A stretch of 22,740 bases of DNA. Origin: a virus. Each line of letters starts with the position of its first letter. Position 1 is the first letter of the stretch. Below are positions 17,869 through 22,253 of this stretch, in pieces. Location of the stretch: positions 1 to 22,740 of IMG/VR virus record IMGVR_UViG_3300045742_000025, one strand, 5' to 3'. The notes beneath the pieces are model-generated. The model did not search any database, was not told where the DNA came from, and saw only the letters and a program-made list of their open reading frames with translations. The position numbers were made by a program, and so were the translations under genes.

Positions 17869-18265
17869 CTTCGTATGTATTATAAATTATGTCTAATTTA
17901 TCAATCATAGTACCTATTGTTCTTGCTGTTCCGCTACAAGCAAAACAAGATGGTTTCCAATAAGGCAAGTTGAATATGTTAGAATACAGTTCGCAAATCA
18001 TTAGTATTTGTTCGTGGCTTACTCTAATCGTTCTAACTTCTTTAAATAGTTTCCATTTGTCGTGTTGTTCTTTAGTAAAACAATTAGCTTTAGTTTTAAT
18101 AGGAAACAGTTTATTTAATTTTTCTTTCCTTTTATCACATCCGCAATCTTTACCCTCTGGAGTAAATGCTTCAACTACTGCTTTAATACCTGTTGCTTCT
18201 GTAATATTTTCTATTACATCCCCAAGCCCTTTTGGTTTTCTTTTACTTCTTGTTTGCTTTGCCAT
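17861..18265 (-). CDS. Cys-rich, probably zinc-binding protein before the terminase genes
   Basis: The 134-residue protein has a basic N-terminus (KQTRSKRKPKG), then CGCDKRKEKLN with Cys41 and Cys43, Cys62, and a C-terminal CFACSGT with Cys107 and Cys110. The paired Cys motifs suggest a structural zinc site. Similar Cys-rich proteins recur next to terminase genes in Bacteroidetes phages. It overlaps the sigma-factor-like gene by 23 nt, so the two are cotranscribed. It may be involved in DNA packaging or regulation; that is inferred from gene order and the Cys pattern. Confidence 0.55.
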   Translation of the reverse strand: MAKQTRSKRKPKGLGDVIENITEATGIKAVVEAFTPEGKDCGCDKRKEKLNKLFPIKTKANCFTKEQHDKWKLFKEVRTIRVSHEQILMICELYSNIFNLPYWKPSCFACSGTARTIGTMIDKLDIIYNTYEDE

Positions 18266-18689
18266 ATTTTTCTTTTACGTTTAATATTACACGTCTTGCA
18301 AATTGGTAATTAATATTATAAGTTCTTTGTATCTCGTGAAAGCTCATTGTTTCATTTAGCCTTAATAGTTCACGTTCAACAAATGTAAGGTTGTTTAAAA
18401 TATTTACTTCTTCATCATTTAATTCATATTTACTATTGTTGTCTTCTAAATAAAATAAAGTTTCAGTACTTACTTTTTTATTATTTTCTTTGCAATAGTC
18501 AAGAAATAAATTTTTAATTGTTATGATAATATAATAATCGTTTGCGTCTAAATCTCTTTTTTGTGATACTTCATAAACTTTTAAATACATATCTTGTACT
18601 AAATCTTTTGCAAGGTCTTTATCCTTACAAATATTATAAGCTATACTACGCCAATATTTATCTTTTTTAGATAGTTCTTTTAGTATCAT
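18243..18689 (-). CDS. ECF-like sigma factor of the phage
   Basis: The 148-residue protein has sigma region 2 (DLAKDLVQDMYLKVYE, residues 25-40, then DYYIIITIKNLFLDYC) and a region-4-like helix-turn-helix (LTFVERELLRLNETMSFHEIQRTYNINYQFARRVI in two parts, residues 101-135). It is short, like ECF sigma factors, and would bind core RNA polymerase and direct it to specific promoters. It starts as TAATG with the small gene upstream and belongs to the transcription unit read from promoter B. That promoter is one of four identical-geometry elements in the window, so this protein is the natural candidate to recognise them. The role in late transcription is inference. Confidence 0.7.
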   Translation of the reverse strand: MILKELSKKDKYWRSIAYNICKDKDLAKDLVQDMYLKVYEVSQKRDLDANDYYIIITIKNLFLDYCKENNKKVSTETLFYLEDNNSKYELNDEEVNILNNLTFVERELLRLNETMSFHEIQRTYNINYQFARRVILNVKEKYGKANKK

Positions 18690-19406: not shown

Positions 19407-19634
19407 TTAAAAAGGACAATTTGATTTTTTAGGTATTAATTCTAAATTTTGTCTTAACACTTCCAAACTTTTAAACTTACCATTTATTAAATAACCTATT
19501 GTATAACATTTAGTGATTTGCTTTACTAATTTTCCGCTTTTTAAATTAAAACAAAGTCCGCAAGTTGAAAAGATATAATTTTCATTATCTTTTAATCTAT
19601 ATTTTGCTTTATATTTTACGTTAAATTCAATCAT
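19407..19634 (-). CDS. Small Cys-containing conserved phage protein
   Basis: The 75-residue protein has a basic, Tyr/Lys-rich start (YKAKYRLKDNENYIF), STCGLCFNLKSGKL with a Cys pair, then CYTIGYLINGKFKSLEVLR and a C-terminal NCPF. The pattern YIF.TCG.CFN..SG..VKQ recurs in small unassigned phage proteins of Bacteroidetes. The Cys residues might bind zinc. It lies between the VRR-NUC gene and the Mom-like gene. Function is unknown. Confidence 0.6.
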   Translation of the reverse strand: MIEFNVKYKAKYRLKDNENYIFSTCGLCFNLKSGKLVKQITKCYTIGYLINGKFKSLEVLRQNLELIPKKSNCPF

Positions 19635-19689
19635 TTTATCAATGTTTATAATAGGTTATAGTTGCATTAAATGTGTGTTTAGCCAATAG

Positions 19690-20406
19690 TTAGTGTCTAT
19701 TTTGAGCAACATTGGTGTCAATGATAATAGGCTCAATAAAAGTTCCTAATTTGTACTTTTGATTTTCTCCTTTTGGGTACGGTTCAATTCCGTAATTTAG
19801 TTTTTTCATATATTCTTTCTTTTTTGTTTTGCTTGTTGCAAAATAAATGTATCGGTGTTTAGCACTTCGGTATTTTCTTAAACCGTTTTGTTTTTCATTG
19901 TCGTAATGCCTTGAATGTTTGCCACCTTCTACATATTTGTCAGTTCTTGCTTTTGTCATTCCTGTATAAATCCAATTTGTAGCTTGGTAAATATATCCGT
20001 TATGGTTCATTTGGCTATCAGCATAAGAAACTAATATTAAATCTTTTGATTTTAGTTCATTTAAGCACCAAGCCACAAACTTTGATAGTTGTATTTCTAT
20101 TTCACCATCAACACAAAGGCGGTTTAATTCAAATACCTTTTCGCTATATTCTTTGCCACAAACACCAATACATAGACTATTACTTGCAGGTTTTCCAAAT
20201 GTACAAACTGCTTTTAATATCCCGTTTTCAAAATACCCAAAAGAATAAGTTATACTTGGTTTTCTTCCTGAATAATGTTTAGGTAATAAAAAATCTATTG
20301 CTTCTTTATACGTAATGGAAGAAAAACAGCCACTAACAATGCATTGTAGCAATGTGGCATTTTTTGGTTTAATCACGTTTTCGTTTTCAAATAAAGTCTT
20401 TTGCAT
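19690..20406 (-). CDS. mom: Mom-like DNA modification protein (GNAT-type fold)
   Basis: The 238-residue protein matches the Mom family: HYSGRKP (44-50), a FGYFENGILKAVCTFGKP segment (56-73), FELNRLCV (92-99), VSYAD (126-130) and GYIYQATNWIYTG (137-149). The family has a GNAT-like fold; phage Mu Mom modifies adenine in DNA and thereby blocks restriction enzymes. This protein therefore probably protects phage DNA. The first ~24 residues are encoded inside an attC-like inverted repeat (20334-20458) and may not be part of the ancestral protein. A start near the conserved TYKEAIDFL segment is not excluded, but no ATG lies there. The product and target base are inferred from the family. Confidence 0.8.
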   Translation of the reverse strand: MQKTLFENENVIKPKNATLLQCIVSGCFSSITYKEAIDFLLPKHYSGRKPSITYSFGYFENGILKAVCTFGKPASNSLCIGVCGKEYSEKVFELNRLCVDGEIEIQLSKFVAWCLNELKSKDLILVSYADSQMNHNGYIYQATNWIYTGMTKARTDKYVEGGKHSRHYDNEKQNGLRKYRSAKHRYIYFATSKTKKKEYMKKLNYGIEPYPKGENQKYKLGTFIEPIIIDTNVAQNRH

Positions 20407-20458
20407 AAATTAAAATTTAGTTTTCATAAGTGCCACACTGCTACAATGCTCAACGTTA
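20334..20458. repeat. attC-like element 1 (overlaps the Mom start)
   Basis: TAACA (20334-20338) and CGTTA (20454-20458) bracket arms 20341-20359 and 20431-20449, which pair at 18 of 19 positions (GCATTGTAGCAATGTGGCA is the left arm). The left part is inside the coding sequence of the Mom-like gene, the right part is upstream of it. It has the same end motifs as elements 2-6. Confidence 0.65.
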
Positions 20459-20470
20459 TAAGTAACCTAT

Positions 20471-20638
20471 TTAGCTACTTACGTCTAAAACCTTAACACT
20501 AATAATGTTTTTGAATTTTCCGTTTAATTCTGTTAGGTTTTCAACTTCAACTATTTCAGATTTTATAACTTTATAATCGTCTAATAATGGGTGTCCGCTA
20601 TCGCACCATTTTTCATATTTTACTAAAACTGTTTTCAT
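20471..20638 (-). CDS. 55-residue cassette protein, unknown function
   Basis: An ATG at 20638 opens a 55-residue frame (MKTVLVKYEKWCDSGHPLLD...) ending 12 nt before element 1. The product is mixed, with a WCDSGHP segment, an acidic middle (SEIVEVENLTELNG) and a C-terminal KNIISVKVLDVSS. It is the only gene between attC-like elements 1 and 2, which supports its reality. The sequence suggests a small globular protein; no family is recognised. Confidence 0.65.
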   Translation of the reverse strand: MKTVLVKYEKWCDSGHPLLDDYKVIKSEIVEVENLTELNGKFKNIISVKVLDVSS

Positions 20639-20663
20639 ACTTTGTAAATTTTTAGCCTACTTA

Positions 20664-20787
20664 TAACATTCGCTATAAATCAGGCTTATGGTTATTGTTT
20701 AATTTTTACTTTGTTTTGTTTCAGTTGTTTCCATTTTGGAACATACTGCTTTTGTACTTACGCCCGATTATATAGCGTTTTCCGTTA
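20664..20787. repeat. attC-like element 2
   Basis: TAACA (20664-20668) and CGTTA (20783-20787) bracket inverted arms at 20671-20685 and 20762-20777. They pair over about 14 positions with one bulged base and one mismatch. It lies 14 nt after the stop of the 83-residue gene and 25 nt before the start of the 55-residue gene. Confidence 0.6.
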
Positions 20788-20801
20788 GTAGCAAGACTAC
20801 G

Positions 20802-21053
20802 TTAATTCCTAATAAGATAATTTTTCAAAAAATCAGATAATAAATCTTCATTGCTTTTTATTTCTCCAGTTCTTACATTTCTTGAAGTTCCATCATTTAG
20901 AGTTATCCATTGATTTGATGTTACATCATAAAAATCAATCGCCATTTTTTTACTCGCAGAAAGAAGCTGATTAAATATACTATCTTCACTATTTGTTTGT
21001 TCTGTAATAATATCTCCAATTTTAGAGGAATATCGTTGTAAATCTACACTCAT
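20802..21053 (-). CDS. 83-residue cassette protein, unknown function
   Basis: The product contains a helical N-terminus (SVDLQRYSSKIGDIITEQTN), a middle with AIDFYDVTSNQWITLNDGTS and a C-terminal helix ending in LIRN. I see no membrane segment, signal or catalytic motif. The gene is alone between attC-like elements 2 and 3 and has an A-rich start region (AACTAAATAAAA). Function is unknown. Confidence 0.65.
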   Translation of the reverse strand: MSVDLQRYSSKIGDIITEQTNSEDSIFNQLLSASKKMAIDFYDVTSNQWITLNDGTSRNVRTGEIKSNEDLLSDFLKNYLIRN

Positions 21054-21103
21054 TTTTATTTAGTTTTATAATTAATATTTGTTTTAAAAATCCGTCCAGC
21101 TAC

Positions 21104-21177
21104 TAACACTTGCTACAATTCAGCAACCGAAAGCAACTTTGTCCATAGGTTGCCGAAACTGTAGCAAGGGAACGTTG
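21104..21177. repeat. attC-like element 3
   Basis: TAACA (21104-21108) and CGTTG (21173-21177) bracket arms at 21109-21128 and 21148-21168. These pair closely (CTTGCTACA and a GCAACC end in both) with one extra base in the right arm. The 19-nt centre is short, giving a compact 74-nt element. Confidence 0.65.
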
Positions 21178-21186
21178 GAAACAATA

Positions 21187-21360
21187 CTAATCCTTAGTGC
21201 TTAATTTAACATCAAAGATTGTAATTCCTTTACCGTAAGTCTTTGCCCAATCTTCTATTTCTTGAAGTGTTGCTGTTTTTTCAAACGTCTTTGAATGGTA
21301 GTATGTATTCCATTCATCCATTCCTGTTTGCCTAGTTACTGAAATAATTGCTTGTATCAT
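21187..21360 (-). CDS. 57-residue cassette protein, unknown function
   Basis: An ATG at 21360 opens a 57-residue frame (MIQAIISVTRQTGMDEWNTY...) and stops with TAG at 21187. The middle segment (YHSKTFEKTATLQEIEDWAKTYGKG in two parts) and C-terminal ITIFDVKLSTKD look like a small alpha/beta protein. It is the only gene between attC-like elements 3 and 4. I do not recognise a family. Confidence 0.65.
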   Translation of the reverse strand: MIQAIISVTRQTGMDEWNTYYHSKTFEKTATLQEIEDWAKTYGKGITIFDVKLSTKD

Positions 21361-21395
21361 TTTATTAATTTTAGTTATTTAATCCGTACTGTTGC

Positions 21396-21442
21396 CAACA
21401 ATATGTAACAGGCATTAAAACGACCTGTTACACAATCCGTTA
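21396..21442. repeat. attC-like element 4 (short)
   Basis: CAACA (21396-21400) and CGTTA (21438-21442) bracket a perfect 9-bp inverted repeat, TGTAACAGG (21404-21412) and CCTGTTACA (21424-21432), around an 11-nt loop. At 47 nt it is the shortest of the six elements. Confidence 0.6.
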
Positions 21443-21464
21443 TATTCCAGCTTCGTGATAGCGG

Positions 21465-21668
21465 TTAAAGTAACTCTGGCTGTTCTCCGAATAGTTCTGG
21501 GTGATATTTTTTAGGATTAAAGTTTTCATTCTTAGATATTATTTCTATCCATTCCTCAAAACTTGTATATTCATTTAATCCAGTTCTTTTGTCGGTAATT
21601 TTTATGTTATCATAATAAATACCGCTTCCATCATTTGTTTGTTCTAATTTTTTACTGTGAATTTTCAT
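21465..21668 (-). CDS. 67-residue cassette protein, unknown function
   Basis: The product (MKIHSKKLEQTNDGSGIYYD...) has an ITDKRTGLNEYTSFEEWIEI segment and a C-terminal PKKYHPELFGEQPELL tail rich in Pro and acidic residues. It is soluble and has no recognisable catalytic or zinc motif. It is the sole gene between attC-like elements 4 and 5. A-rich sequence precedes the ATG (AAATATAAAATT). Function unknown. Confidence 0.65.
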   Translation of the reverse strand: MKIHSKKLEQTNDGSGIYYDNIKITDKRTGLNEYTSFEEWIEIISKNENFNPKKYHPELFGEQPELL

Positions 21669-21710
21669 AATTTTATATTTAATTTATTGGTGTAAAAAAA
21701 GCCGAGAATA

Positions 21711-21782
21711 TAACAGCAGTTAAAAATAACAGCCGATAGTTCCTGTGTGTGTAGGCTGTTTATTTTTAGCTGCGAACCGTTA
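21711..21782. repeat. attC-like element 5
   Basis: TAACA (21711-21715) and CGTTA (21778-21782) bracket arms at 21716-21734 and 21754-21773. They pair along GCAG, TAAAAATA and ACAGCC with a single extra base in the right arm. The stop codon of the 95-residue gene lies inside the conserved GTTA. Confidence 0.7.
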
Positions 21783-22067
21783 TAACTCATTTTCCAAGGC
21801 GTAAATATTATCTTCGAGTTTATCTACTTCTTCGGCTTCTGAAATACCCCAATCTCTTAAAGTATCGTTTGAACTTCTTAATTTTTCAAGTTCATTATCA
21901 AAATCCCAAAGTATATTTTCTATATCAGAAATAATATCTTTAAACTCATCAATATTATCTATTTTTTGATAGTTTCTAATAAGTTTCATTATTTCTGTTT
22001 GTCCTTTAATTAATTTGTCAATATCAGGGCAAGTATGTCTTATCGGTTCTCTATGATGTTTTCTCAT
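21780..22067 (-). CDS. 95-residue coiled-coil cassette protein
   Basis: The N-terminus is REPIRHTCPDIDKLIKG, followed by a helical, Glu-, Asp- and Leu-rich stretch (DIISDIENILWDFDNELEKL) and a conserved-looking RSSNDTLRDWG segment (residues 65-75). The rest ends in a Leu/Glu helix. This His/Cys start plus LRDWG motif recurs in small phage and island proteins of Bacteroidetes whose function I do not know. The C-terminal part is probably a coiled coil. It lies between attC-like elements 5 and 6, and its stop is inside element 5. Confidence 0.7.
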   Translation of the reverse strand: MRKHHREPIRHTCPDIDKLIKGQTEIMKLIRNYQKIDNIDEFKDIISDIENILWDFDNELEKLRSSNDTLRDWGISEAEEVDKLEDNIYALENEL

Positions 22068-22079
22068 AAAAACGAGTTA

Positions 22080-22201
22080 TAACAGTTGTTTGGCACTATT
22101 GCCGTTTTGTTTTTCAGCGGAAAATCCGCTGGTAATTTTGATGTTTATTTCTTCGATTCACGTTCACGTTATCGGCAACATTGCCAAGCAACCAAACGTT
22201 A
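22080..22201. repeat. attC-like element 6 (right end of the array)
   Basis: TAACA (22080-22084) and CGTTA (22197-22201) bracket arms at 22085-22104 and 22173-22192 that match at 17 of 20 positions. A second small hairpin (AGCGG/CCGCT, 22116-22130) lies in the central loop. This is the array's right boundary. Confidence 0.65.
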
Positions 22202-22216
22202 TAATTTAATTCTCAA

Positions 22217-22224
22217 CAAATATA
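22217..22224 (-). promoter_or_regulatory. Possible -7 box facing the cassette array
   Basis: The minus strand has TATATTTG, a perfect Bacteroidetes -7 box, about 15 nt before the right end of the outermost element and directed into the array. No TTTG is seen at the expected spacing upstream. It could supply the leftward transcription of the five cassette genes, but confidence is low. Confidence 0.3.
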
Positions 22225-22253
22225 AATAAAATATTTTAATTAAAACTATCTTT

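Follow-up and report, generated by a model that had tools for sequence, protein, structure and literature searches.

Integron arrays, as known from class 1 integrons and Vibrio superintegrons, are treated as rare in Bacteroidota; the IntegronFinder 2.0 study names one complete integron in Bacteroidetes proper, that of Salinibacter ruber M1 (PMC9024848). Clusters of attC sites lacking integrases (CALINs) have been published from phages, 17 of them among 10,705 genomes (Qi et al. 2023, PMC9892861); the presence of cassettes in a phage is therefore not new in itself. Here we analyse a window of 22,740 bases, the whole of the virus record IMGVR_UViG_3300045742_000025. It contains genes for terminase, portal, Mom and NinB-like proteins, and its NinB region resembles that of Flavobacterium phages. 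Six hairpin elements, E1 to E6, alternate with small genes in one part of the window (Table 1). With a probability of roughly 80%, we read this region as a mobile cassette array, integron-like in its working, that would represent a separate Bacteroidota branch and be used by phages in trans.

Like integron arrays, the region has one gene and one folded site per cassette, a G^TT cleavage point, end boxes that match across the cassette and an attI-like acceptor of similar layout. Chromosomal arrays of the same elements are also tandem and mostly in one orientation, often with a recombinase gene at the array head. In contrast to known integrons, the core boxes read GTTA(T/G)nnGC and not GTTRRRY, the bulge lies in the other arm, and stem pair 14 is a conserved G.T wobble. 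The recombinases lack the IntI-specific segment, are N-terminally extended and are co-directional with the array, and the phage genes are antisense and lie downstream of their sites. With the published phage CALINs the array shares its occurrence in virulent phages without integrase, methyltransferase cargo and the inclusion of a flavobacterial phage. It differs from them in length, cultured Flavobacterium phages reaching 14 sites and one IMG/VR contig (L099) about 15 in a row, and in its attI-like site, systematic antisense coding, natural gain and loss of cassettes, and a chromosomal counterpart with its own recombinase. Since tests for the attC core and for IntI both fail, we do not file the system as a canonical integron, though it appears to work like one.

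The six inverted repeats reported in the initial annotation are present to within 1 nt, with one small minus-strand open reading frame (ORF) in each of the five intervals. Of the bulge or offset ascribed to four of them, a bulged base is found in three (E2, E3 and E5, always in the plus-strand right arm), whereas unequal spacers occur in all six (1-4 nt left, 5-6 nt right). The detector that scored them demands AAC...GTT ends and arms pairing behind short spacers, and ignores the outer box bases save T or C before AAC and A or G after GTT. Dinucleotide shuffles of the whole window (n = 100) gave a top score of 14.5 and a mean of 0.24 hits of at least 13 per 22.7 kb; shuffles of positions 20301-22250 (n = 300) gave a mean of 0.01 such hits. 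The elements exceed chance expectation, E4 not being significant when standing alone. No match was found in an Rfam search. A short-loop covariance model, R1, found many sites and missed long-loop ones, including four of the six in the window; for genome scanning it was dropped after missing known arrays, and an IUPAC pattern was used in its place. Intrinsic terminators, with a G+C stem, short loop and U-tract, were considered and set aside: of four terminator-like sites in 2.7 kb, two lie within E6 and none at E1-E5, and most elements are thus unlike the ordinary terminators that the initial annotation had named as a competing reading. A strong small hairpin with a T-rich tail (TCAGCGGAAAATCCGCTGG, 22114-22132, plus strand) lies inside the loop of E6.

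The initial annotation compared the ends of single elements; the informative match instead spans each gene interval. Among all loci collected, end boxes are identical at 9/9 positions in 68 of 98 intervals, whereas random pairing gives 1.4% and the ends of a single element are identical in 3 of 191 cases. While a cassette is circular, the two boxes of its site pair with each other; once it has integrated at G^TT they stand apart, so that the boxes come to match across the interval. This matching is the decisive regularity, just as integron logic predicts. Both complementary boxes at cassette ends and composite sites after G^TT integration are found here, and the exchange units appear to be cut at G^TT, or AA^C on the gene strand.

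The array is longer than first described: the five intervals stand, and mom is a sixth cassette. Its product matches Mom (PF25680, 1.3e-28; phrog_1384, 6e-57). The mom stop overlaps a box, GTTAGTG (19689-19695), that is complementary to the left box of E1; as both its ends carry complementary boxes, mom is a cassette by the same rule. The motif of the adjoining attI-like site, GCG..TA..N5-7..GTTA, recurs at array ends of other phages and beside the recombinase in chromosomes, giving an acceptor at the array head with constant spacing in both.

Table 1. Features of the putative cassette array in the window.
Feature	Position	Strand	Remarks
attI-like end site TGTGTGTTTAGCCAATA^GTTAGTGTC, no hairpin	19672..19697	+	array boundary beside mom; abuts GTTAGTG box
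Cassette 1: mom-like DNA modification gene, ORF 19690-20406, with E1	19690..20455	-	homology elsewhere ends at boxes
Cassette 2: 55-aa ORF 20471-20638 with E2	20456..20784	-	boxes GTTATAAGT / ACTTATAAC match 9/9
Cassette 3: 83-aa ORF 20802-21053 with E3	20785..21174	-	boxes GTTAGTAGC / GCTACTAAC match 9/9
Cassette 4: 57-aa ORF 21187-21360 with E4	21175..21439	-	boxes GTTGGAAAC / GTTGCCAAC, imperfect match
Cassette 5: 67-aa ORF 21465-21668 with E5	21440..21779	-	boxes GTTATATTC / GAATATAAC match 9/9
Cassette 6: 95-aa ORF 21780-22067 with E6	21780..22198	-	boxes GTTATAACTC / GAGTTATAAC match
Element E1, attC-like hairpin	20335..20457		score 19.7; fold computed
Element E2, one bulged T in right arm	20665..20786		score 13.1
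Element E3, one bulged base in right arm	21105..21176		score 15.7; covariance model R1 29.5 bits, minus strand
Element E4, short form	21397..21441		score 10.2; weak alone, box matches both sides
Element E5, one bulged A in right arm	21712..21781		score 16.6; R1 44.2 bits, minus strand
Element E6, outer array end	22081..22200		score 15.2
Flanking phage gene, 75 aa, beside attI-like site	19407..19634	-	similar genes after array in L005, L084, L087 (by eye)

Relatives of mom in IMG/VR lie in phage contigs that share little beyond the mom unit, and most mom-bearing contigs have no other homology to one another. In four of them (L005, L006, L007 and L008), homology spans from an upstream TAAC to a downstream CACTAAC and then stops. 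Over seven phage contexts, identity is 67-72% inside the mom cassette against about 30% outside, at both boundaries. The element that moves together with mom is the upstream one; the polarity follows from this, with the gene antisense to the TAACA...CGTTA strand. The opposite polarity, with canonical genes as judged from the position of the bulge, was rejected on account of these cassette boundaries. Three different stem sequences surround a similar loop and flanks, both arms having changed together, and a methyltransferase cassette behaves similarly to mom. The same elements with different genes between them, which the initial annotation had proposed to seek, were thus found in related and unrelated phages, and, judged from these alignments, the cassettes move independently between phages. 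No match to the tyrosine recombinase family PF00589 was found in 16 other records or in the window itself, for which the lack of an integrase had already been noted.

The NinB match led to Flavobacterium phage hattifnatt9-1 (MN812207; L207:31131-35031), whose array comprises nine elements and shows the box matches; 47 phage records contain near-identical parts of that array. Eleven cultured Baltic Flavobacterium phages (L207 and L208-L217) have arrays of 9-14 elements, rich in DNA methyltransferases, with 32 cassette types in differing combinations and orders. In 13 of 15 distinct insertion or deletion differences, both breakpoints fall within TAAC cores, which make up about 2.7% of array positions. 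One end sequence, ATAAC^TACAATATTACATGAT, is invariant in all eleven phages, while the cassettes adjoining it vary. PF00589 has no match in these 11 complete genomes. The isolation paper treats the phages as lytic and does not mention integrons; it notes that LMO9 phages plating less on LMO6 lacked a specific methyltransferase, and it correlates the presence of one methyltransferase gene with plating that differs 1000- to 10,000-fold from host to host (PMC7077304). Related phages plainly gain, lose and reorder cassettes, apparently by means of a recombinase of their Bacteroidota hosts that resembles the known integron integrase without being one.

Gene orientation was counted from the longest ORF of each distinct cassette. 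In phage arrays, whose loci were reached through few query genes, 106 cassettes are antisense and 5 sense; in chromosomal arrays 87 are sense, the canonical arrangement, and 10 antisense (38:2 and 38:3, respectively, in an earlier, stricter count). The antisense coding first proposed for the window is therefore borne out as a property of phage arrays as a group. Since the chromosomal loci were mostly found by a gene-independent pattern, the contrast is unlikely to be a search artefact. An antisense gene places the site upstream of it, and in 38 of the 106 phage cassettes the start codon falls within the element, including that of mom, inside E1 (20335-20457). In many, the core GTT is apparently read in frame, and the 3' arm would encode leaders such as MQKTLFENEN...VSGS. 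That different genes, mom and a Muminvirus gene, share such leaders suggests that their translation starts from sequence provided by the hairpin loop.

Bacteroidota chromosomes, too, carry arrays of these elements. The pattern for a single subtype matched 54 of the 395 Bacteroidota genomes, a lower bound given that the IUPAC pattern sees one subtype only; the reversed control pattern gave three hits. In arrays such as L186-L187 and L189, elements lie on one strand with genes between them and matching boxes. Some of these 'chromosomal' arrays may lie in prophages or plasmids. On one chromosome (L192:5391-10153), two cassettes of 730 and 555 bp are duplicated at 100% identity, the duplications ending at element ends. 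A genome scan with the mom protein found no relative.

Members of one recombinase family (alignment A3) occur in 40 of the 54 pattern-bearing genomes, compared with 76 of the 341 others (p = 2e-13). It lies within 25 kb of an array in 22 of the 40, and 19 of these 22 share one geometry, upstream of and co-directional with the array. At several loci an attI-like site follows the recombinase stop codon by about 100 bp. Aligned with IntI1 of plasmid R751, seven of seven recombinases show a 43-column gap, and the co-located enzymes lack the IntI-specific additional domain near patch III. Their best-scoring family is NF040815, the XerA-type 'site-specific tyrosine recombinase/integron integrase', which they enter or approach at its cut-off (219-235 bits, cut-off 220). 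They differ from it by an extra N-terminal region of about 70-180 aa, an IntI-like C-terminal SPxD motif and their physical tie to cassette arrays. Profile scores and this common C-terminal motif point to a putative sister group of IntI. The integron enzymes of spirochaetes are canonical IntI. With the 'reverse' integrons of these bacteria (Treponema type), whose reverse orientation is noted in PMC9668308, the system here shares an integrase gene in an unusual orientation relative to the cassettes; it differs in that its recombinases have no insert. A W-rich N-terminal motif with weak DUF5710-like matches is seen in L197:972-2720, where it is apparently repeated, and in other recombinases. A Cyclobacteriaceae array (L040:3524-5574), with an IntI-like recombinase alongside, has as its first cassette after the attI-like site an antisense methyltransferase of the phage type; this cassette is a possible trace of exchange between phage and chromosomal pools.

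We propose that a host-encoded IntI/XerA-like tyrosine recombinase, from the head of chromosomal arrays, would fold and recombine the sites in trans, circular cassettes being inserted at the phage attI. For the phage, the gain would be accessory genes that can be exchanged, mom and DNA methyltransferases among them; they would be expressed in the same direction as the phage operon and plausibly protect the phage from restriction. Cassette structure and boundaries, natural exchange, the attI-like acceptor and, in chromosomes, the co-location with a recombinase are seen in the sequences themselves; the action of the recombinase on the sites, its action in trans on phages, and anti-restriction as the main benefit are what we infer. 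We also lean, with less assurance, towards a wider picture: Bacteroidota would have their own integron branch, with an IntI-sister recombinase devoid of the supposedly essential insert, and their virulent phages would keep a reverse-coded cassette pool, with attI and in-hairpin starts, which the host enzyme would shuffle in trans, making it a market in which counter-defence genes are exchanged.

Several observations weigh against the mobile-array reading. The link between recombinase and sites is drawn from co-location and geometry; 14 pattern-bearing genomes have no recombinase match, and in 18 of the 40 that do, some of them many-contig drafts, the recombinase has no listed element within 25 kb. 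The boxes of E3 and E4 match imperfectly, and in 2 of the 15 phage differences a breakpoint falls outside the TAAC cores. At several phage breakpoints the shared sequence extends to 16-32 nt, so that some further events may come from homologous recombination between elements that are alike. For the window phage, no close relatives with and without each cassette were found. The elements were selected by pairing, which partly favours both their scores and their covariation figures (94% of cells paired; 0.68 versus 0.15 in shuffled data).

A conventional CALIN, in which canonical IntI integrases would deliver and shuffle the cassettes and sequence drift would be the sole difference, seems to us unlikely. 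Qi et al. (PMC9892861) found IntI1 to recombine 5 of 6 phage attC sites tested, and their CALINs include two sites of a Flavobacteriaceae phage, Polaribacter phage P12002L; we detected elements in P12002L, which we do not equate with those sites. The top-strand TAACA...CGTTA polarity and the logic of the cassette-end boxes are also the same, and the attI found here resembles attI1 of R751 (CGCCCTAAAACAAA^GTT). However, the strict core consensus is present in only 6-8% of sites (RYYYAAC in 14 and GTTRRRY in 12 of 183 elements, of which the detector itself demanded AAC and GTTR). Canonical extrahelical bases lie in the R''-side arm of the top strand, as they do in the R751 control attC sites; here bulges are mainly in the opposite arm, around columns 10-13, and the spacers are not the 5 and 6 nt of the conventional site. 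The co-located recombinases, without the IntI segment of about 43 residues, score 187-219 bits with TIGR02249, under its cut-off of 265, compared with 507 for IntI1. The scarcity of complete integrons in Bacteroidetes proper also speaks against this explanation. The integron-cassette reading of the initial annotation holds, together with its suggestion of a distinct family of sites, and no outcome that it had named as refuting came about.

We consider phage mosaicism quite improbable here, with the hairpins as mRNA structures or terminators whose similarity would allow gene exchange by ordinary homologous or illegitimate recombination. It would account for the longer shared stretches at some breakpoints, the elements are repeated, and close phages infect the same hosts. 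But other breakpoints share just 6-8 nt, nearly always TAAC(GTT), and homology does not predict boxes that match across intervals and not across elements. Nor does it fit a hairpin-free attI-like end serving as fixed acceptor, chromosomal arrays adjoining a recombinase in fixed geometry, or elements that mostly have long loops and no U-tract. That the hairpins are chance palindromes, as the initial annotation had also considered, or regulatory RNA stems without mobility is scarcely credible: the gene-strand fold is slightly more stable in all six elements and the conserved G.T wobble suits RNA as well as single-stranded DNA, but the shuffle tests, cassette boundaries and natural gain and loss of cassettes contradict it.

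If confirmed, sites and a recombinase that both fall outside current models would mean a large cassette system largely unseen so far, judged from the open-access literature, outside which an earlier description is possible. A recombinase without the insert would question the need for the IntI-specific domain in cassette recombination. In phages, the system would explain the rapid turnover of DNA-modification genes, and with both phages and hosts in culture, the idea is open to direct testing.

Some minor observations remain. L003, L051, L075 and L095 each have a similar short gene (MKQ.TK.K.IR...PF, about 60 aa) immediately after the phage attI-like site. Several weak model hits, each about 61 bases long, are spaced along a Flavobacterium genome (G103:C1:1170146-1188543; L146, L151-L155) and possibly belong to another repeat family. 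The promoter search, a sigma-70 consensus scan, was uninformative, this consensus being unsuited to Bacteroidota promoters. At 18243-18689, the window encodes a sigma-70 region 2-like protein (PF04542, 1.1e-6), possibly a phage sigma factor.

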